64,000 nucleotides of DNA. Origin: an uncultured Fretibacterium sp. Its GTDB lineage: Bacteria > Synergistota > Synergistia > Synergistales > Aminobacteriaceae. This document shows, piece by piece, positions 2,125-57,897 of this stretch (within the stretch, counting starts at the first letter, position 1; each line of letters starts with the position of its first letter). Where the stretch lies: assembly GCA_946186205.1 (NCBI GenBank), contig CAMHMH010000002.1, positions 248,001 through 312,000 on the forward strand. The letters run 5' to 3'. The notes below the pieces were generated by a model. That model did not search any database and was not told where the DNA came from. It saw nothing but the letters and a program-made list of their open reading frames with translations. The position numbers and the translations under genes are program-made.

Positions 2125-2153
2125 TTGACACTCGCATATAATGATGCTATAAG
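2125..2153 (+). promoter_or_regulatory. Consensus promoter TTGACA-17-TATAAG abutting a heptamer repeat
   Basis: TTGACA at 2125-2130 and TATAAG at 2148-2153 are separated by 17 bp, the ideal sigma-70 spacing. The heptamer array begins at the last base of the -10 element, so the predicted start of transcription lies within the repeats. The same arrangement recurs at 7299 and 56827. Confidence 0.5.
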
Positions 2154-3284
2154 AGCAACGAGCAACGAGCAACGAACGTAGAAGTATACGTAGCGACACA
2201 TAAGCCGATAGATTTTTCCCTTCCTGATTACTGCAAAAAGATTCAGACAAACGCCGAGGCAAATGGACAATGGTCGGGCTGCCTTCACGACAACGACAAC
2301 CCCGATAATATTTCCCTCAAGAATCCATATTACTCTGAGCTTACCGCGCTTTATTCGATGTGGAAAAACTGCAAGAGTGATATACAGGGCTTGTATCATT
2401 ACAGGCGTTATCTCAGCAAGAAATTCATCCCGGGCTGCGGCCAGATAACCGCGGGAGTCCCGGATGATATTATGAGGCTGGCATTGACACGCTCCGAGAT
2501 TCTCAGCGCGCTTGAAACCTGCGATATTATATTGGCTGCTCCTGTGGATTATTATGAAGTAATGACCGTCGGCGAGATGTTCCGTAGGTATGTCAGATGG
2601 GAAGATACGCGCGAGCTTTGGAGGGTCATTGAGGAGAAATACCCGGAGTATTTGCCGTTGCTTGAATATGCGTACTCACAGGATCATTACTACGGCTGCA
2701 ACATGTTCATTGCCCGGCGTGATTTCGTTGACGGCTATTGTACGTTGCTGTTTGATGTTCTCGGAGAAGTCGAGAGAAGAATCTCCGTTGAAGGTGATGA
2801 CAGTCAGCATAAGAGAATTTACGGTTATTTCTCTGAAGCACTGCTGAATGTCTATGTCCTCCGGCACAACATGAAAATCAAATGCTTCACGAGAATTTTT
2901 GCCATTTTTCAAAGCCGCTCACAGCGTTTGAAGGAAAGCGTCAAAAACATGCTCAAGAAGATTCCGTTCCTGCAGAAAACAGTACGCGCATTCCGCAAAA
3001 AATTTATGGGTGCTATGTACGAGGACACGAGAGAGAATGCAGAGACAGAAAAATTTTATGTCGCTGTAATACGTTATGTTAAATACGGCCGGTATATAGC
3101 GGAGTTCACGCCCAAGAACCCGGACTGCTTCATTCACGATTTGGAGTCAGTGCTGCCGGAATTTGAATCACGCGCAAAAAGTGAAGGAATGGTATTCACT
3201 CCGCGAGTCATTCTCAGCTCAGAGACTCCCGAATCCGTAAAGCGATCCATGTTTGAAAGGGGAGTCAGGGTTATTCACCGTTAA
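2145..3284 (+). CDS. DUF4422 family sugar-transferase-like protein, start out of register (phase-off?)
   Basis: DUF4422 homology starts at VEVYVATHK (2178-2204) and includes the hallmark HYRRYL (residue about 14 counted from the first ATG at 2358). The frame opens after a TGA at 2142-2144 but has no ATG, GTG or TTG before 2358, which would delete about 60 conserved residues. An upstream frame with a ribosome site (TTG 2125) stops at TAG 2179-2181 and would join this frame if the heptamer array had four or one copies instead of three. DUF4422 proteins are usually found in capsule and surface-polysaccharide loci. I read this as a phase-variable gene in the off state; a true pseudogene or an unusual start is possible. 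It converges on nudC with a 4-base overlap. Confidence 0.7.
   Translation, partial: CYKSNEQRATNVEVYVATHKPIDFSLPDYCKKIQTNAEANGQWSGCLHDNDNPDNISLKNPYYSELTALYSMWKNCKSDIQGLYHYRRYLSKKFIPGCGQITAGVPDDIMRLALTRSEILSALETCDIILAAPVDYYEVMTVGEMFRRYVRWEDTRELWRVIEEKYPEYLPLLEYAYSQDHYYGCNMFIARRDFVDGYCTLLFDVLGEVERRISVEGDDSQHKRIYGYFSEALLNVYVLRHNMKIKCFTRIFAIFQSRSQRLKESVKNMLKKIPFLQKTVRAFRKKFMGAMYEDTRENAETEKFYVAVIRYVKYGRYIAEFTPKNPDCFIHDLESVLPEFESRAKSEGMVFTPRVILSSETPESVKRSMFERGVRVIHR
2153..2173 (+). repeat. Heptanucleotide tandem repeat GAGCAAC x3
   Basis: Three perfect copies of GAGCAAC occupy 2153-2159, 2160-2166 and 2167-2173, followed by GAACG. Because the unit length is not a multiple of three, each gain or loss of a copy changes the reading frame between the upstream start signals and the DUF4422 coding frame. 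Confidence 0.85.
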
Positions 3285-7298: not shown

Positions 7299-7328
7299 TT
7301 GACATTCCACGAAAATCATAACCATAAT
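7299..7328 (+). promoter_or_regulatory. Promoter TTGACA-18-CATAAT directly before the octamer array
   Basis: TTGACA at 7299-7304 and CATAAT at 7323-7328 are 18 bp apart. The repeat array starts two bases later, so the first transcribed bases would fall inside it. Confidence 0.5.
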
Positions 7329-7330
7329 AG

Positions 7331-7386
7331 TTACGGGCTTACGGGCTTACGGGCTTACGGGCTTACGGGCTTACGGGCTTACGGGC
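7331..7386 (+). repeat. Octanucleotide tandem repeat TTACGGGC x7
   Basis: Seven perfect head-to-tail copies of TTACGGGC cover 56 bp and end in a partial TTGGGC. There is no spacer between copies, so it is not a CRISPR. It lies in the presumed 5' leader of the exported-protein island. Copy-number change could alter leader length or structure. Confidence 0.95.
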
Positions 7387-7523
7387 TTGGGCTATTCATG
7401 TGCGTAAAATCCCTTCACATATTCGGATTCACCTGACGAGATTTATTCCTTTGAGCGCAAATTTACACGTGCGGATTCTTATTCCGTACCCGGCAAACCA
7501 TCAACGCAAGGAAGAATCTCAAT

Positions 7524-7964
7524 ATGGACATCAGGAAATCAACATTATCACTTCTCACAGCGTTAATACTTTCAGGAGCGGCATCAGCATTCGGGGATGA
7601 CGGCTATACTTTCACGCCTCCCCCGCCTCTAAAGATAGCTCAAAAGGGCTGGAACTCCCTCGGAACAATCACGGTCAGCGCAAACACAGCTTTTGACTCA
7701 TCAAAGAAGCTCGTTGTTACGGTGTCAAGCGCAAACGGTTTCACGCTCAAAGCCGGCGGAGCTTCTGACGGAGTAGCATACCTTCACGCAGCGAACGAGG
7801 GCGACTCATCGTCAGCAATAACATTCATGTTCACAGCGGATCAGGTAAACGCGGGAATCTCTCAGCCTGTCGGGGTAATCGTTGATGACTTCAGCACAAT
7901 GGATGACGGGATATACACAGACGAAATCACATACTCGGTTGAAGTTCAAGACGCTGCAAACTGA
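7524..7964 (+). CDS. Secreted beta-rich protein, first of three paralogues
   Basis: Start ATG 7524 follows AAGGAAG. A signal peptide (basic MDIRK, hydrophobic run, ASA cleavage near residue 22) leads a single domain of about 120 residues. Shared with the next two genes are W-N-S-L/I/M-G in the first third, KKLVVTVSSANGF, a TFxFTADQ segment and the closing YTDEITYSVEVQDA. The alternating polar/hydrophobic pattern points to a beta sandwich. I recognise no named family; the YTDEITYTV ending is like those of small surface fibre or adhesin subunits. A pilin-like or matrix role is a guess from context. Confidence 0.6.
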   Translation: MDIRKSTLSLLTALILSGAASAFGDDGYTFTPPPPLKIAQKGWNSLGTITVSANTAFDSSKKLVVTVSSANGFTLKAGGASDGVAYLHAANEGDSSSAITFMFTADQVNAGISQPVGVIVDDFSTMDDGIYTDEITYSVEVQDAAN

Positions 7965-48506: not shown

Positions 48507-51203
48507 TTAACTTGACTTGAGGCACTCTGAGATTATCCCGTCAATTTCCAGCGGGCTGTACGCTGTATCACATACCCATTCGCCATATGTCTTTACGTTG
48601 CTCACGGCCTCGCACCATTCACACAACGCCTTATGCTTTGCTCTGCTCTCGTCTGTCTCGACTCCCTTCACTTCAAGCACAAGCATCTTGTCATTCGTCA
48701 GCCTCACGAGGAAATCAGGAAGGTAACGCCGAGTGAGTCCCCCGAATGAATAGCGTACAAAGAATCCGAGATGATCATTTTTCGCCCAAGCCTGAACGTT
48801 TGCGTTGCGGTCAAGCTGATATGCCGCTGATGATTCCCATGTTGAGTCGAACGTGCATATGTTGATGTGTGATTTCGCTGTCTCATGATGTGGGCGTGAA
48901 GTTCTCCACGTCTCCATCTCACCTGTTGAGCGCAAGAATTTTCCCTGACGCAGAATCGGAATCAATGCCGTAACATTATCGCTTCTGATCCCCTGCCACA
49001 TGTGAGAGATTATCCGCTCCATGTTGAAGCACAAGAGAATCTTTTTCCGCCGAATGTCCGTAACGAATCGCTCCGGCTTAATCTTGATGTTGCCGCCCGA
49101 AATATATTGCTCAGTGAGTCTCACAATCTCGCCGAGAAGGTGAAACGTTGAGCCGTTCTGCCAATCGTAATGAGACTCCCGCTTCATCGTCGTGAAAACA
49201 TTTGCGGCCGTCCGGAAAATTATTCTCTGCATTCTTTCATGGCCGTAAATTTTATCGAGATCAATATTGTTCAGTGCGTCAAGATTTTCTTTCCCGTCAA
49301 CAACCGCCGCAAGCTCCGCGCTGATTCGTGTTGATGATGCGTCAAGAGTCATCTCAGGTATCGCCGAAACATCAAGCGTCAGAGTCTGACTCATAACGTA
49401 ATTTATGCTCTCGACTTCCGGCCATGTGATAGCGTATTGACTCCTGTCGTCCAGCACTCTCACTTCTGCAGGCGGTCTTCTGTCTATTGCAGGCAGCTCC
49501 CTCTCGCTGATTTCCTCCGTAAGAAGATAGGCGAATGGCACTCCGAAAACATTAACGTATTCAGGCGTGAAAAGCTCATTGTCTCCGACAGCCTCATATG
49601 ATGATCTCCGCAGCCCTCTTCCTACAACCTGCTCGCAAAGCAGCTGACTCGTAAACGCACGCAAGCCCATAATCTGAGTCACAGTTCTTGCGTCCCATCC
49701 CTCAGAGAGCATTCCGACAGAGATAATATTACGGAGATTCGCGCCCGGCTTGTCAGGTTGTCCGACAGTGTTAGCTTTTTCGCGAATCTTTGCGGCCTCG
49801 TCTGCTGGTGCCTTCTCCAGTTTCTTGGAGTCAATCCGCAGAACGTAATCCCCTTTCAGTTCGGGTATGTCGATATTAATCCCCTCTGTGAACTCATGCT
49901 CAATCCTCGCGGCTGTGTTCGTGTTGTTCGCAACCGTAATCATCACAGGCGGAGTCGGATTGTTCCACGTCCTGAAAACTTCCTGCCAGTCATGGCCGAG
50001 AAGCATATACGCATTCCGAACGAGTCCGGGCAAAGGGTCATCAGGGCAGTTCGTGCGATTGAGATCGGCTTTAACGTCATCATTCTTGTAGATGTGCCAG
50101 AGCTTTGATTTGTTCGTGCGTATGTCGGGCGGCGCATTGTCCCTCACAACAACGCACGGAGTCTTCACGATACCCGCCTCGATTCCGTCATCTAACGAGT
50201 AATCGCTCACTATCCACGAGAATACGCCCTTGTCTTCTTCCTTCTCACGCCCGGGCACAAACGGAGTCGCCGTGAAGTCGTAGCATTTCTTTATCCCCCG
50301 CACGCTGTGCAGTCTGTCGAGTCCCGTAATCCACACCGTAGCCATTCGCTGATTCTCTTTCTCTTCCTGAGTCTTTGCTCTCTTGTCTTCAGGCCTGAAT
50401 CTGTATGCGTGGTGCGCCTCATCATTTATCACAATAAGGTTGCGCATATCACCGACAATTTTTTGACAGTATGACTCATCACTTCTTGCGGGTTTCTTTT
50501 CGACTGATTTATTTTTCGCAGGGTCAATCCTCGACTCATCATCAAGAAATTGCCAGTTCCGAATCAAAACGCACGACTGATTCATAATCTCACGCATCGA
50601 CTCAGGCACTACAGAAAATTTTGCGTAATAATTATCCTTGCTGTTAGGAATCAGGACTCCGAGTCGTTCTCTCACTGTCAGATTCGGCGCGACAATCAGA
50701 AAGTTACGGGTGTAATTCTCACTCGCAGGATTTTCCGCAAAGTTGCAGACCTGCCACGCAATTAACATCGACATTACGAGAGTCTTCCCTCCGCCCGTGC
50801 ATAGTTTCGTGCATATCCTCTCGAACGGACTCCCATCATCAGCAACAATTATCCCCGAATGAGTCTCAGCAAGAAATATCAGCGTCTCTATTGCTTCAAG
50901 CTGGCACCAAAAGAACGGCGTATCCTCTCTCGCTCTCCTGTCGTGCCAATGCGATAACAATTCACGCGTTATGTCGGTGGACTCAGCATAGCCAGACTCA
51001 CGCCATGACTTTACGAGAGGGCGTATACGGTTCACGAGGTCTATCGGCCAAAATTCGCGCGTCTCGTTCCTACGTTCAATCCAGAATCCCGACGGGCGGC
51101 GGCCTGTTTCTGTCGTGAATTTCTCCGTGTCATCGTGATACCTGAAGTACTGACTCGGCTCCGTATACGGCGAATTGATTACGATTTGTTTCTTGTCGTT
51201 CAT
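48507..51203 (-). CDS. Type III restriction enzyme, Res subunit
   Basis: An 898-residue SF2 translocase/nuclease. Walker A is CTGGGKT at 135-141, motif II is INDEAHHAYR, motif III DFTATPF, and late motifs are SEGWDARTV and CEQVVGRGLRR. The C-terminal PD-ExK nuclease is seen in RRYLPDFLVRL and MLVLEVKGVE. It works with the Mod protein to cut DNA near two head-to-head unmethylated sites. Overlaps mod by four bases. It appears intact. Confidence 0.88.
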   Translation of the reverse strand: MNDKKQIVINSPYTEPSQYFRYHDDTEKFTTETGRRPSGFWIERRNETREFWPIDLVNRIRPLVKSWRESGYAESTDITRELLSHWHDRRAREDTPFFWCQLEAIETLIFLAETHSGIIVADDGSPFERICTKLCTGGGKTLVMSMLIAWQVCNFAENPASENYTRNFLIVAPNLTVRERLGVLIPNSKDNYYAKFSVVPESMREIMNQSCVLIRNWQFLDDESRIDPAKNKSVEKKPARSDESYCQKIVGDMRNLIVINDEAHHAYRFRPEDKRAKTQEEKENQRMATVWITGLDRLHSVRGIKKCYDFTATPFVPGREKEEDKGVFSWIVSDYSLDDGIEAGIVKTPCVVVRDNAPPDIRTNKSKLWHIYKNDDVKADLNRTNCPDDPLPGLVRNAYMLLGHDWQEVFRTWNNPTPPVMITVANNTNTAARIEHEFTEGINIDIPELKGDYVLRIDSKKLEKAPADEAAKIREKANTVGQPDKPGANLRNIISVGMLSEGWDARTVTQIMGLRAFTSQLLCEQVVGRGLRRSSYEAVGDNELFTPEYVNVFGVPFAYLLTEEISERELPAIDRRPPAEVRVLDDRSQYAITWPEVESINYVMSQTLTLDVSAIPEMTLDASSTRISAELAAVVDGKENLDALNNIDLDKIYGHERMQRIIFRTAANVFTTMKRESHYDWQNGSTFHLLGEIVRLTEQYISGGNIKIKPERFVTDIRRKKILLCFNMERIISHMWQGIRSDNVTALIPILRQGKFLRSTGEMETWRTSRPHHETAKSHINICTFDSTWESSAAYQLDRNANVQAWAKNDHLGFFVRYSFGGLTRRYLPDFLVRLTNDKMLVLEVKGVETDESRAKHKALCEWCEAVSNVKTYGEWVCDTAYSPLEIDGIISECLKSS

Positions 51204-53674
51204 TCTGAGTCCTCCAGCGTCAAAAGTCTCATGCTCTCGATTCCTCGGTCATCAATAATCTTAACCGCTATCGTGCTGTCTTCCTTCACGTCAAACGGAA
51301 GCGACTCAATCCCCGAAAATTTTTCCATCATTCCCGAATCAATTTCAGCCCTTAAAGTTTTTGACAGCCGAGTCCATCCGCCCGATTTGCCTTCCATCGG
51401 GAAAAATATCTGCGACGGCGTGAATGTCATTCCGTTATAGTTCGGATCGATTCCCCACATCGCTATTTTGTCCGCATTCCCCGAAATCAATTCATCTTTC
51501 GACACGCTGAAATAGTCATAGCCCAATACGCGCACGATAAATTTTCCGTCCCTCTTCAAAAGTTCTACATCAGGCTGACCCACAAGCCAGAATGATTCAT
51601 CACTCGCAATTTTTTTCCTCAAGTCCTCCGTGAGCAAGTCATCATTCATTTCAACCTGAAGCAATTTCACGCCCGGCCAGAAAAGCGTGTTGATTTTGTT
51701 CTGTGCTTCGGGGTCAAACTGAAACGCGCAGAATATCATCAAGTTTGCGTTAGGGACTCTCTCTTGCGCCTCCGTGCATGCGTTGATTACCCTCTTTGAG
51801 TCCATAACCGTATGGCTGTCAGCAAAACACACAACACACCGCCGCGGACTCACTTCTTCCGTCATGGCCGAGTACTGTATCCATCTCGCGCCCGTTATCT
51901 TGTCATGTCGCGAAAATCTTATCCGTTCACCTCCTTTTGCGCGTATTCCCGTCGCCATTAACTGACTCATGAAGCTGTCCTGCCTTCCCTGCTCTTTAGG
52001 GTCAAGGCTCGCTGCTTCCTCAAGGCTCATTACTGACGGTGAAGGAAGAGACTCAACCGTGAAAGGCCCGGAGACTCTCACCTTCCCGGAATCAATTTCG
52101 GGCTGGTCGTAAAGAGTCTCATGCGAGGGTTCTTCATTGTTGGCGATTGATTTCAGTGTTACGTGAGGGACTGTCTTATACACAAAGCCGGATGAGATTC
52201 CTATTCCGGGATTGGCGAGCTTGTACGAGTCGTATGTTGCTGTCATGAGTCGCTGGCGTGCGATTGCGATTGCCACGCGGGAAGTGTCGCAGGTTATCCA
52301 TCTTCTGCCCCATTTCTCTGCGGCGTAAGCTGTCGTTCCTGATCCGCACGTTATATCGAGCACGAGGTCTCCGGGGTCTGTTGTCATGAGAATGCAGCGG
52401 GAGATTACAGCGGGTGATGTCTGCACTACATATTTCAATTCGACTCCGATTTGGACTCCCTCCCATAAGTCGCCAAGTTTCATTACGGGGAAATCATCAA
52501 GGTATCTTTTGTAGCGCAATGTATTTCCGTTCCTGCTAATGCGTCCGGCCTTCACAAGATTCGCAAAGCCTTCTTTTGATGTCTTCCAACTTCCATGCGA
52601 GATATAAAATTTTTCTCCGTTAAATATCATAGGTTCAGTAGAATTACTACTTGCGCTCGGCGAATATAATGGTGTATACTGAACAATTCGGTGGCTTGAT
52701 AGAAAGGTTTTATCTCTTAACTCTTCAGGCGTTACCCTTCTCGTAGTTCCATCATCAAATTCAACTGTGTCATATCTGTCCAACGATGTATCACCGGCTT
52801 GACGTTCAACAAACAACTGATGATATTTCACCCGCGCTTTGTCCTTTGCGTACCACACAAGATAATCTGTCGTGCTTGCTATGAGACTCGCTTGAATGCT
52901 GCCGACCTTCTGAAACTTAATCATGACGACAAAATTCTCCGGGGAAAAAATCTCATCGCAAATTTCCCGGACATGGTGAACATTCTCATCACTAATCTGA
53001 ACGAAAACGCTCCCGGACTCATTCAGCAATTCCCGCGCAAGATAGAGCCTGCTCCGCAAATACGTCAGGTACGAATGAATGCCAAGCTCCCACGTATCAC
53101 GGAAGGCGCGAATCATTTCGGGTTCTGCGGTCAAATCATTGTCGCTTTTGTCCTTAACGTCTCTTTTTCCGACAAAGGGCTGAAAGTTTGAGCCGTATTT
53201 TATTCCGTATGGCGGATCAATGTATATCATCTGCACTTGTCCTGACATGCTTTCTTTTCGCAGCAGCGAGTTCATGATGATGAGTGAGTCTCCCGCTATC
53301 ATTCTGTTCATCCAGCTGTCTTTGTGCTGATATGCTTCGAGTGCGCGGACTCTTTCCCTGTAAATATCTTCGGGCGATGGGTCGAACATGAAAATCTGCT
53401 GTGCTTCTTTCTGCTGAGGAGCAGCGAGCGCGGGAATAATGAGTCTCTGAGGGTAAATAGTTTCGTGCCTGTGGATTGAAGTTGCCGGGACGGTGAAAGA
53501 TTCTGACTCAGGTTTTCCGGCCCAATTGAGCGAGGGTGAGTCGTTCGGGTCAATGTGATACGTGATGAGAGAGTCGGGATTGAGGTCGCCTTGAGTGAAT
53601 CCTGCGGAGGGGTTATTGGGACGTGAGTCGCCGCTGTGAATTGTCGACCCAATTTTGATGTGCTTGGTTGACAA
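51200..53674 (-). CDS. Type III DNA methyltransferase, Mod subunit
   Basis: Start TTG 53674 (STKHIKIGST) follows AGAAGGAA. An 824-residue N6-adenine methyltransferase of the beta group: DPPYGIKYG at 153-161 comes before the SAM site DITCGSGTTAYAAEKW near 445. The C-terminal 300 residues probably hold recognition and Res-contact parts. No simple repeat is found in the frame, so it shows no sign of being a phase-variable mod. The recognition sequence cannot be told. Confidence 0.88.
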   Translation of the reverse strand: MSTKHIKIGSTIHSGDSRPNNPSAGFTQGDLNPDSLITYHIDPNDSPSLNWAGKPESESFTVPATSIHRHETIYPQRLIIPALAAPQQKEAQQIFMFDPSPEDIYRERVRALEAYQHKDSWMNRMIAGDSLIIMNSLLRKESMSGQVQMIYIDPPYGIKYGSNFQPFVGKRDVKDKSDNDLTAEPEMIRAFRDTWELGIHSYLTYLRSRLYLARELLNESGSVFVQISDENVHHVREICDEIFSPENFVVMIKFQKVGSIQASLIASTTDYLVWYAKDKARVKYHQLFVERQAGDTSLDRYDTVEFDDGTTRRVTPEELRDKTFLSSHRIVQYTPLYSPSASSNSTEPMIFNGEKFYISHGSWKTSKEGFANLVKAGRISRNGNTLRYKRYLDDFPVMKLGDLWEGVQIGVELKYVVQTSPAVISRCILMTTDPGDLVLDITCGSGTTAYAAEKWGRRWITCDTSRVAIAIARQRLMTATYDSYKLANPGIGISSGFVYKTVPHVTLKSIANNEEPSHETLYDQPEIDSGKVRVSGPFTVESLPSPSVMSLEEAASLDPKEQGRQDSFMSQLMATGIRAKGGERIRFSRHDKITGARWIQYSAMTEEVSPRRCVVCFADSHTVMDSKRVINACTEAQERVPNANLMIFCAFQFDPEAQNKINTLFWPGVKLLQVEMNDDLLTEDLRKKIASDESFWLVGQPDVELLKRDGKFIVRVLGYDYFSVSKDELISGNADKIAMWGIDPNYNGMTFTPSQIFFPMEGKSGGWTRLSKTLRAEIDSGMMEKFSGIESLPFDVKEDSTIAVKIIDDRGIESMRLLTLEDSE

Positions 53675-55315: not shown

Positions 55316-56785
55316 ATGTCAAAAACTTTCAGGCGTTTCATCATTTCACTTCTCATTCTCATTCTCATACCGTCATCATCATTCGCAGTAACAAAATATG
55401 AATTTCTTACGGGATTGCTTTTAGCACGCGGCATAAACTGGGACGAGTCACCCGAAGCACCCTACAACGACGCGCCCGGATTTTTGCTGCGTACCGGCTA
55501 CGTGTCAGACACAGTAACGAAACTTGACGGCCCTGTAACGAGGCGTGAGGCTCTGCGATGGTGCATTGAGAGTCTCGGACTTACGTTTGAGGCTGGACTC
55601 TTCACTGACTACCCTTCAGGCTTTGCGGACGACAAGAAGCTGACTCCGTTTGAGCGCGGCTGCCTTGTTGTAGCGTCCAGAATGAACCCGCAGATTTTCA
55701 GCACAGCAGACTTCAAGGGCGAAAGATTTTCCGGCGCGAGCAATCTCACAGTGAACGAGGCAAGAAGAATCCTTCAGCGTTTGGGGAGCGCGTCGCAGAA
55801 TTTCACGCTTGATGTGATTCGCAATCCTGTGAAGGGACTCCGTGTTCACATTCACCGCGAGGGGGTTCCTTCCGGGATTCCGACATGGAGGTTTTTTGCT
55901 GACGGAATAAAGACAAAGGCGGCTGCTGATTACTTCAAGTCATCGCTTCAGGAGGAAGGCTACAGCATGAGCGTATCAGGCATAAACGGAAGCTACAGCG
56001 TTAGGAGTCAGAAACTTGAAGACTACAACGACATACGGAGGCTCGAAACGATAGCACAAGCTCGCGGACTGACGACTAGAGTCCTCCCATCAATGAGCAA
56101 TCCGAGAACGCGAGTCGTGCCAAGATTCTGGGTAATGCTCATGATAGATCCGAGCTACTACAGAATTTCGCCGATAGCATCAAGGGAAGGCCCTACGGAA
56201 CTGCGCACACTGTCATCAATTTACGGACAGAACAACGTGCAGGCAGCAATAAACGCGGGCTTCTTCGGGATACTGAAAGGGGGAAAAGGCTTCCCGATCG
56301 GAGCACTGAGAGTCAACGGAAGGAATTTCACGCTGCCTCACGACATGAGGGGCTGCCTTGCGTGGAATGAAGACGATGAAGCGTTATTTGCAGTGGCAGA
56401 AAGCACAGAAGACACAAATTACTGGCCTGATATGACGAACGTAATACAGGCCGGGCCGATGTTAATTGACGACGGAGAGACAGCAAACTATGAGGAGAGC
56501 TTCACGGGCGGGATAATATCTGCGAGGCATCCGCGCTCTGCTGTTGGTCTGAATGCTGAAGGCTCATGGGTATTTCTTGCTGTTGACGGGCGGAACGGTA
56601 TGCACTCATCGGGAGCAACTATCTCTGAGCTGACTGAAATTCTTCGCGGACAGGGAATGATTTACGCATTGAATCTTGACGGGGGCGGCTCAACAGAGAT
56701 AATCATTGACGGCAAAATCTACAACATTCCTTCAGACGGCTACGAACGGAGAATATCATACGGACTCGGAGCGGTGCCGAGATAA
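55316..56785 (+). CDS. Secreted phosphodiester glycosidase (NAGPA) domain protein with SLH-like N-terminus
   Basis: Start ATG 55316 after GGAAGG. A signal peptide (MSKTFRRFIISLLILILI to SFA) is followed by about 140 residues with SLH-like helices (VTRREALRWCIESLGL, PFERGCLVVASRM, LTVNEARRILQRLG). A SPOR-like segment (WRFFADGIKTKAAADYFKSSLQEEGY, about 205-260) comes next. The C-terminal half is a NAGPA domain: AAINAGFF, AGPMLIDDG, RHPRSAVGL and NLDGGGSTEIIIDG. NAGPA enzymes open phosphodiester-linked sugars. A place at the cell wall is likely, fitting with CsaB. Three domains in one envelope protein are typical of Synergistota and Firmicutes. Confidence 0.8.
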   Translation: MSKTFRRFIISLLILILIPSSSFAVTKYEFLTGLLLARGINWDESPEAPYNDAPGFLLRTGYVSDTVTKLDGPVTRREALRWCIESLGLTFEAGLFTDYPSGFADDKKLTPFERGCLVVASRMNPQIFSTADFKGERFSGASNLTVNEARRILQRLGSASQNFTLDVIRNPVKGLRVHIHREGVPSGIPTWRFFADGIKTKAAADYFKSSLQEEGYSMSVSGINGSYSVRSQKLEDYNDIRRLETIAQARGLTTRVLPSMSNPRTRVVPRFWVMLMIDPSYYRISPIASREGPTELRTLSSIYGQNNVQAAINAGFFGILKGGKGFPIGALRVNGRNFTLPHDMRGCLAWNEDDEALFAVAESTEDTNYWPDMTNVIQAGPMLIDDGETANYEESFTGGIISARHPRSAVGLNAEGSWVFLAVDGRNGMHSSGATISELTEILRGQGMIYALNLDGGGSTEIIIDGKIYNIPSDGYERRISYGLGAVPR

Positions 56786-56790
56786 ATATA

Positions 56791-56799
56791 TGTTAAAAT
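56791..56799 (+). promoter_or_regulatory. Extended -10 promoter (TGtTAAAAT) before the acyltransferase
   Basis: TG-n-TAAAAT lies just after the upstream stop codon, in the same place as the extended -10 at 2091. A transcript from it would carry AAAGGA (56817-56822) and ATG 56834 ahead of the octamer array. Confidence 0.45.
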
Positions 56800-56826
56800 C
56801 ACACACAAAATTCATGAAAGGAACGG

Positions 56827-56854
56827 TTGACAAATGAGTTTTACGGCTCATAAT
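56827..56854 (+). promoter_or_regulatory. Promoter TTGACA-16-CATAAT abutting the octamer array
   Basis: TTGACA at 56827-56832 and CATAAT at 56849-56854 are 16 bp apart; the array starts at the next base. Same layout as 2125 and 7299. ATG 56834 lies inside this spacer, so only transcripts from the promoter at 56791 could use it. Confidence 0.45.
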
Positions 56855-57897
56855 GGCTTCAGGGCTTCAGGGCTTCAGGGCTTCAGGGCGATGGGCGGGA
56901 TTCTGTCCTTGATTCGCTGAGAGGGCTTGCGATAATTTTTGTAGTGATTGGGCATTTGCCGCACCAGCTCGGAAGCGTGGAAGTAACTTCTTCATTCGAT
57001 TCGATTATACTTTGGGTATACAATTTTCACATGCCGCTGTTCTTTCTTCTTTCGGGATATGCGGAGGGTATAAGGACTCATTCTGATGAATTTTCGCGCC
57101 AGTTCCTGAAAAATTTTATGTCTCTGTATGTCCCGTGCTTGTTCTTCTCGTATCTTCAAGCTGTCCTCAATCTTCTTGTGTTCTCGTCGTCAAATTCCGT
57201 TAATGCTCACGTACCCGGGATGCGTGATTTCCTCATGATACCTTTTTCCGGCTACCTCAATTACTGGTTTCTTTTCTCGCTGTTCTTTGTGAAAACAATT
57301 CATAATTTCTTCGTGCGCTTCGTGAGGAACAAATATTTTCATGCGTCATTCTGGATAATCGTCTTTATTCTCGCGGGGCTTCCTGATTCATTTGGCGGCG
57401 TATTATCGTTTCTTGCGAGGCGTATTAATCTGGGAATATATTTTCACGCCGGATATGTCATAAGCACGGGAAAATATATCTCACGCGAAAAGAGTCCCGG
57501 CTTCTTGTGGGGAATTGCGCTTCTATTTGCGGGACTGGTTATTTTCTTTGCGTCTGATTTTGAGGGTGAATATAAATTTTTAGCGCGGGCTTCAGTTGCT
57601 TCGTGCATAAGTCTTTCACTGCTAATTTTGTTTTACGCGCTTAATGTCAGCAATAAATTTCTTGCAGTCTGCGGGCTTTACAGCATGGTAATATACTGCA
57701 TACACAATTACGCGGCCATGATATTCCGTATTCTTTACAGGCTGGGAAATTTTCACGGGCTTGTTTTTCTGCCGTATGCTGTTTGCTTTTTGATGGCTAT
57801 GTTTATTCCGCTTGGTGTTGTCTGGCTGTACAAGAATGTGAAGTGCCTGCGATGGATTGAACATATATTTTATCCGGGCAAGTTAATCAGGAAATGA
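56854..57897 (+). CDS. Acyltransferase family 3 membrane protein, start out of register (phase-off?)
   Basis: The frame opens after TAA (56851-56853), runs through the repeat array and then gives GDGRDSVLDSLRGLAIIFVV (56890 on), the classic start of acyltransferase-3 proteins, with IGHLP (catalytic His) and FHMPLFFLLSGYAEG. About ten helices follow. No start codon is in frame before GTG 56944, which would cut the first helix and has no good ribosome site. ATG 56834 would join this frame with three copies, and ATG 56853 with five, of the octamer. Such proteins O-acetylate surface polysaccharide or peptidoglycan. I read the gene as phase-variable and now off. Confidence 0.8.
   Translation, partial: WLQGFRASGLQGDGRDSVLDSLRGLAIIFVVIGHLPHQLGSVEVTSSFDSIILWVYNFHMPLFFLLSGYAEGIRTHSDEFSRQFLKNFMSLYVPCLFFSYLQAVLNLLVFSSSNSVNAHVPGMRDFLMIPFSGYLNYWFLFSLFFVKTIHNFFVRFVRNKYFHASFWIIVFILAGLPDSFGGVLSFLARRINLGIYFHAGYVISTGKYISREKSPGFLWGIALLFAGLVIFFASDFEGEYKFLARASVASCISLSLLILFYALNVSNKFLAVCGLYSMVIYCIHNYAAMIFRILYRLGNFHGLVFLPYAVCFLMAMFIPLGVVWLYKNVKCLRWIEHIFYPGKLIRK
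56855..56886 (+). repeat. Octanucleotide tandem repeat GGCTTCAG x4
   Basis: Four perfect copies end in a partial GGC. The unit is not a multiple of three, so copy change shifts frame between the starts at 56834 or 56853 and the acyltransferase frame. At the present count both starts run to stops before the membrane domain. Confidence 0.93.

Follow-up and report, generated by a model that had tools for sequence, protein, structure and literature searches.

How an acyltransferase can be produced from a reading frame that has no start codon of its own is the question raised by this locus, which lies in a 64,000-nt stretch of a contig from an uncultured Fretibacterium sp. (the window). The acyltransferase frame, which ends at TGA 57895-57897, is intact for 335 codons after a tandem repeat array and encodes a near-complete domain, and its match to PF01757 (86.7 bits against a curated cut-off of 31) meets the criterion for family membership; the match to the NCBIfam fucose acetyltransferase NolL was weak and far below its cut-off. 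No start codon was found between the array and the conserved domain, and the first in-frame NTG, GTG 56944, is located within the conserved first helix. The first-pass annotation had claimed that the frame is open from 56854 without a start before its first helix, and that a ribosome site and ATG 56834 lie upstream of four octamer copies, and both claims held (Table 1). When leaders with 0-12 copies were built in silico, the acyltransferase was off at 4, 7 and 10 copies, open from ATG 56834 (ATG1) at 3, 6 and 9 copies, with a product of 351 aa at 3 copies, and open from ATG 56853 (ATG2) at 2, 5, 8 and 11 copies. The annotation had stated that the loss of one copy or the gain of two would bring ATG1 into frame and the gain of one would bring in ATG2; this copy-number arithmetic is right, because the in-silico frames agree with it. 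The unit length is not divisible by three and the array stands between a start codon and the main frame, which meets a criterion of a contingency locus. Sequence generated from a dinucleotide model (3 x 464 kb) contained no perfect array as large as this one.

Table 1. Features of the acyltransferase locus and of the other array loci in the window.
Feature	Position	Strand	Remarks
Upstream neighbour, phosphodiester glycosidase-domain protein	55316..56785	+	PF09992, 1.5e-31
P1, extended -10-like element TGtTAAAAT	56791..56799	+	Upstream of ribosome site; promoter by resemblance only
AAAGGA	56817..56822	+	Ribosome-binding site of ATG 56834; kept in homologue leaders
TTGACA, -35 of promoter-like motif P2	56827..56832	+	Conserved in homologues
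ATG1, start codon	56834..56836	+	Enzyme frame reached at 3, 6, 9 copies
CATAAT, -10 of promoter-like motif P2	56849..56854	+	Adjoins array directly
ATG2, start codon	56853..56855	+	Enzyme frame reached at 2, 5, 8 copies; without own ribosome site
Tandem array (GGCTTCAG)4.4	56855..56889	+	35 nt, four full GGCTTCAG copies plus GGC; copies 100% identical
Acyltransferase-3 open frame	56854..57897	+	OFF at present copy number; PF01757, 2e-24, profile 4-321 of 326
Expected N-terminus of acyltransferase product			MSFTAHNGFRASGLQG; predicted
Second array locus, TTGACA-N17-TATAAG then (GAGCAAC)3.3	2125..2175 (array 2153-2175)	+	5' end of DUF4422 gene
Third array locus, TTGACA-N18-CATAAT-AG-(TTACGGGC)7.25	7299..7388 (array 7331-7388)	+	8-nt unit

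We believe that the GGCTTCAG array is very likely a contingency switch acting on translation, a judgement made without reads, strains or expression data. In the mechanism we propose, P1, about 25 nt before the ribosome site, would give a transcript carrying AAAGGA and ATG1, although transcription from P1 is only inferred. Ribosomes would enter at ATG1 and read through the repeats without meeting a stop in any frame. Slipped-strand mispairing, which is likewise inferred as the cause, would add or remove 8-nt copies and shift the frame, and production of the surface-glycan acyltransferase would therefore be switched on or off. The sequenced genome would then represent the OFF state. In well-studied bacteria, the loops formed by units of 5-8 nt are too large for mismatch repair, and for this reason slippage would stay frequent. 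Change within a clone remains an inference, and so does the view that the switch governs O-acylation of surface polysaccharide.

Homologues of the acyltransferase were collected by a protein-similarity search among 101 relatives, which returned loci in the same genus, some at 35-52% identity and others more distant. Many of them carry the same octamer GGCTTCAG in the same place, with 3.4, 4.4, 5.4, 7.4, 8.0 and 9.4 copies across loci, and others carry 7-nt arrays of different sequence at that place (GGTCTCA, GGCTCAC and an AGGCTCA type in L021). Three homologues (L007, L014 and L024) are in the ATG1-ON frame and three (L010, L012 and L023) in the ATG2-ON frame, and some of the remaining array-bearing homologues are OFF. 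Between species of the genus, homologous loci thus vary in copy number and show both ON and OFF frames, which meets a further criterion of a contingency locus. In one genome, the locus shares the 3' end of the upstream gene with the window and has 7.4 copies against 4.4. The array-less homologues L006 and L016 have an in-frame start at the same ATG, after GGAG...TTGAC, and L005 and L009 have too few copies to switch. The first-pass annotation had read the locus as translational phase variation and proposed counting copies in related genomes. The count, 3.4 to 9.4 among homologous loci, is not fixed, and the reading is supported by these differing copy numbers, by the presence of both ON frames and by the agreement of the genus-wide translation tests described below. 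Between two species (L004 and L011), near-identity extends over the leader and about 48 nt past the array, whereas the acyltransferases are only 41% identical overall; gene bodies might have been exchanged behind a conserved 5' cassette.

The leader is not confined to acyltransferases. The pattern AAAGG-n-TTGACA-n-ATAAT gave about 130 matches in 29 of the 41 genomes of the genus, and the reversed pattern gave 3. Arrays directly follow 94 of the 110 leaders that were read out from this motif search, with units of 7 nt (49), 5 nt (41) and 8 nt (2), together with one weak 6-nt unit and one of 10 nt, the last being a 5-nt unit with a mismatch. Of the 94 leaders, 74 have a P1-type TATAAT-like element at a distance of 18-45 nt upstream of AAAGG, compared with 28.7 +/- 4.4 in shuffles. 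Sampling of eight genomes of the genus and of 60 kb from one genome of another family, 1.26 Mb in total, yielded 19 perfect arrays with 5-, 7- or 8-nt units. The window's genome, of which about a sixth was covered by the sampled stretches, has 6 array loci in 464 kb, which extrapolates to roughly 36 genome-wide. The annotation had held that tandem octamers are rare as switches, and this needs correction: arrays with 5-, 7- and 8-nt units recur across the genus and are not rare here. We rejected the idea of a phylum-wide feature, as array leaders were not found outside the genus in the loci and genera checked. In the rest of the phylum, the leader motif occurred 0-3 times per genome and no arrays were present at the ten such loci checked, and promoter-abutting arrays were likewise absent from 400 kb sampled in two further genera of the family. 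Counts across the leader set are not fully independent, because its loci are related by descent to an extent that is not known.

The Pfam families of 75 downstream proteins were led by glycosyltransferases, polysaccharide pyruvyltransferases, bacterial sugar transferases, MBOAT acyltransferases, methyltransferases, Stealth proteins, Acyltransferase-3 and LicD, and we infer that the targets of the arrays are mostly surface-polysaccharide enzymes. Contig breaks within 100 nt of the leader fell on the array side in 13 of 110 cases and on the other side in none; this is compatible with length variation or with shared repeats and proves neither. Two genomes (L094 and L082) have identical 37-nt leaders followed by different arrays, CGCCTAT and CCACA, which might mean that arrays are replaced wholesale or that leaders are shuffled between genes. 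Another class of 7-nt array (TAGTGTG at L046:4734-4755 and AGTGTGA at L051:9142-9166) is not situated behind the promoter-like motif.

Several tests bear on whether the arrays are translated. The leader spacer contains an ATG in 99 of 110 cases, compared with 28 expected from shuffling, and GTG or TTG in 9 more. On the coding strand, all 35 distinct units are free of stop codons, whereas 11 of 35 contain one on the other strand; within-unit shuffles gave an average of 4.8 (p about 0.0015). The arrays are therefore readable in every frame, which is also a criterion of a contingency locus. At loci without a downstream start, the long ORF is open through the array in 51 of 51 cases, 17 of them in phase. 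At other loci, the array takes a second form, lying inside a short leader ORF whose end meets the start codon of the next gene. One of the three frames ends -5 to +7 nt from the downstream start in 19 of 25 such loci, compared with 5.6 +/- 2.0 expected when the start was shifted by up to 30 nt, and the end often overlaps the downstream start exactly, as ATGA. From this layout, translational coupling is predicted in one of three phases; 6 of these 19 loci are in phase. When both forms are taken together, 23 of 70 loci are in phase, which is one third (p = 1.0 against one third), as expected when each array wanders freely. The OFF genes have full-length domains and are not decayed.

Other explanations of the leader were tried. 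Because units of 5, 7 and 8 nt are present and those of 6 and 9 nt are absent, frame shifting fits better than promoter geometry, and the proposal that promoter geometry fixes the unit length was rejected. A leader hairpin in RNA or DNA around the start codon (ATGG...CCAT) was also rejected. Stem length slightly exceeded that of shuffles (3.62 vs 3.21), and no excess of arm complementarity was found against arms permuted between loci (p 0.08-0.79).

One feature had been missed by the first-pass annotation and is not required by a plain translational model. P2 (TTGACA-N16-CATAAT, 56827-56854) ends with its last base directly before the array. In the 1.26 Mb sample, a TTGACA-N16-18-TATAAT-like motif lies 0-2 nt before 16 of the 19 arrays with 5-, 7- or 8-nt units, compared with 1.6% of random positions, and no such motif was found before arrays with 3-, 6- or 9-nt units in the same sample. 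Among the homologues, which were picked by protein similarity alone, all 11 that bear an array have the -10 part of P2, judged by eye, compared with 2 of the 7 that lack an array (Fisher p 0.0025). The motif class TTGACA-N16-18-YATAAT also precedes tRNA genes in these genomes, so P2 resembles the genus's own tRNA promoters, by consensus only. The proposal that TTGACA belongs to translation starts in general was rejected, as TTGAC lies near only 3 of 233 ordinary starts. A transcript from P2 would lack ATG1 because transcription would start inside the array. P2 was unexpected and is superfluous to the switch model; it is a real sequence feature whose role is unexplained. Repeat instability, polymerase pausing or a second transcript are possible roles, for which there are no experimental data. 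A bolder reading, which we regard as unlikely, is that P2 is a working promoter that opens the DNA at the repeat and raises slippage or pauses RNA polymerase. If this were true, the locus would be a contingency locus that has a promoter dedicated to repeat instability, common to dozens of loci in the genus, and each locus would carry its own built-in mutability element.

Similar juxtapositions were seen elsewhere. In Fretibacterium sp. RUI518 (L253:1560-1680), TTGACA-N18-TACAAT adjoins (GGCTTCAG)10 before a secreted-protein gene, in another arrangement in which the promoter spacer contains the ribosome site. In Serratia sp. AKBS12 (L215:1000-1100 and 2715-2820), two tandem genes each have TTGACA-N17-TATAATG followed by (GGCTTCAG)4, with signal-peptide-like sequence downstream of the arrays.

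The window contains two more array loci (Table 1), whose 7-nt and 8-nt arrays had also escaped the annotation. The DUF4422 gene (2125-3284; PF14393, 1.8e-57) looks locked off because ATG ATG CTA TAA stops just before its array. The leader at 7299-7388 has neither a start codon nor a ribosome site, and 135 nt downstream of its array begins the gene of a small protein (7524-7964) whose start resembles a signal peptide; this locus is the best candidate for a transcriptional repeat like that of hmw. A Type III-like restriction gene (ResIII) adjoins an N6/N4 DNA methylase gene at 48507-53674 on the minus strand, and no array was found at the start of that methylase gene. In the same assembly, the initial 69 kb of C2 (C2:1-68872) is present again as the redundant contig C10, and both contigs end inside the same (CGAACCA)n array. 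We rejected the view that they are two haplotypes: the only differences lie in the outermost ~115 nt of C10, and therefore no strain variation is shown.

Points against the switch model are that P2 is superfluous, that ATG2 has no ribosome site and that L005 and L009 have too few copies. The rival that survives best, which we still consider very unlikely, is promoter-repeat control of the hmw1A type, in which P2 would drive transcription, the repeats would start the mRNA, copy number would tune the transcript level and the frame effects would be incidental. It is favoured by the motif 0-2 nt before 16 of 19 arrays, by the same motif class before tRNA genes, by the window array at 7331, whose leader without a start codon would fit, and by precedent, as the heptamer repeats of hmw1A overlap the -10 of its P2 promoter and expression falls with copy number (PMC8262952). 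However, it leaves unexplained the conserved spacer start codon, the stop-free units, the lack of 6- and 9-nt units, the 51 of 51 open frames, the coupled leader ORFs and the one-third phase, and the acyltransferase gene has no start codon downstream of the array. The array does adjoin a promoter -10, by consensus only, but the repeats are not untranslated with a start codon downstream, as the hmw1A type demands. The other rival, a decaying pseudogene in which the repeat is a mere frameshift and not a switch, draws on the gene being OFF as sequenced without a start codon in frame, and is all but excluded by the intact 335-codon frame with its near-complete domain, by two thirds of loci being OFF yet full-length, as random phase predicts, and by arrays that persist at the acyltransferase position in many species.

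Among known systems, the repeat loci of Haemophilus influenzae that switch surface-glycan genes are tetranucleotide, with 5-, 7- and 8-nt candidates also given (PMC2651432). Translational phase variation there is like the switch proposed here in that a unit that is not a multiple of three lies close to where the ORF begins, the frame depends on copy number and the targets concern surface polysaccharides, LicD included. The lic-type loci of H. influenzae also have alternative ATGs in different frames, as here. In contrast, the units here are 5, 7 and 8 nt rather than mainly 4, the phylum is different, and only here do we find a conserved leader common to dozens of loci, a promoter-like motif adjoining the array and some arrays within leader ORFs that are coupled to the following gene. 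For the promoter motif, hmw1A is the nearest precedent: hmw1A and hmw2A similarly have a 7-nt array starting at a promoter -10 (PMC8262952), but their repeats are untranslated and tune the transcript level with the start codon downstream, whereas here the start is upstream and ribosomes would read the array. Xanthomonas and Nostoc likewise have abundant perfect 7-nt tandem arrays, of one G-rich unit type genome-wide, for which the authors judged a role in phase variation unlikely (PMC4692102); here the units differ per locus and lie at the gene starts of surface genes. The annotation's statement that phase variation has not been described in Synergistota was not quite right, as DNA inversions have been inferred in one of two Synergistetes species (PMC5903667). 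In the literature searched, we found no paper on repeat-mediated switching in this phylum.

With this study, an uncultured Synergistaceae genus, with several goat-gut genomes, joins the bacteria that possess a large repertoire of repeat-driven switching. Dozens of such switches apparently serve the surface-sugar genes of the genus, in which units of 5, 7 and 8 nt are standard. In the second form, the repeat decides whether a leader ORF ends on the start codon of the next gene. For annotation and short-read assembly, it means that switched-off genes of these genomes would be called broken or be lost at contig ends. The constant placement of the promoter motif next to the array raises a testable question, that is, whether a promoter may control the mutability of the repeat that it adjoins.
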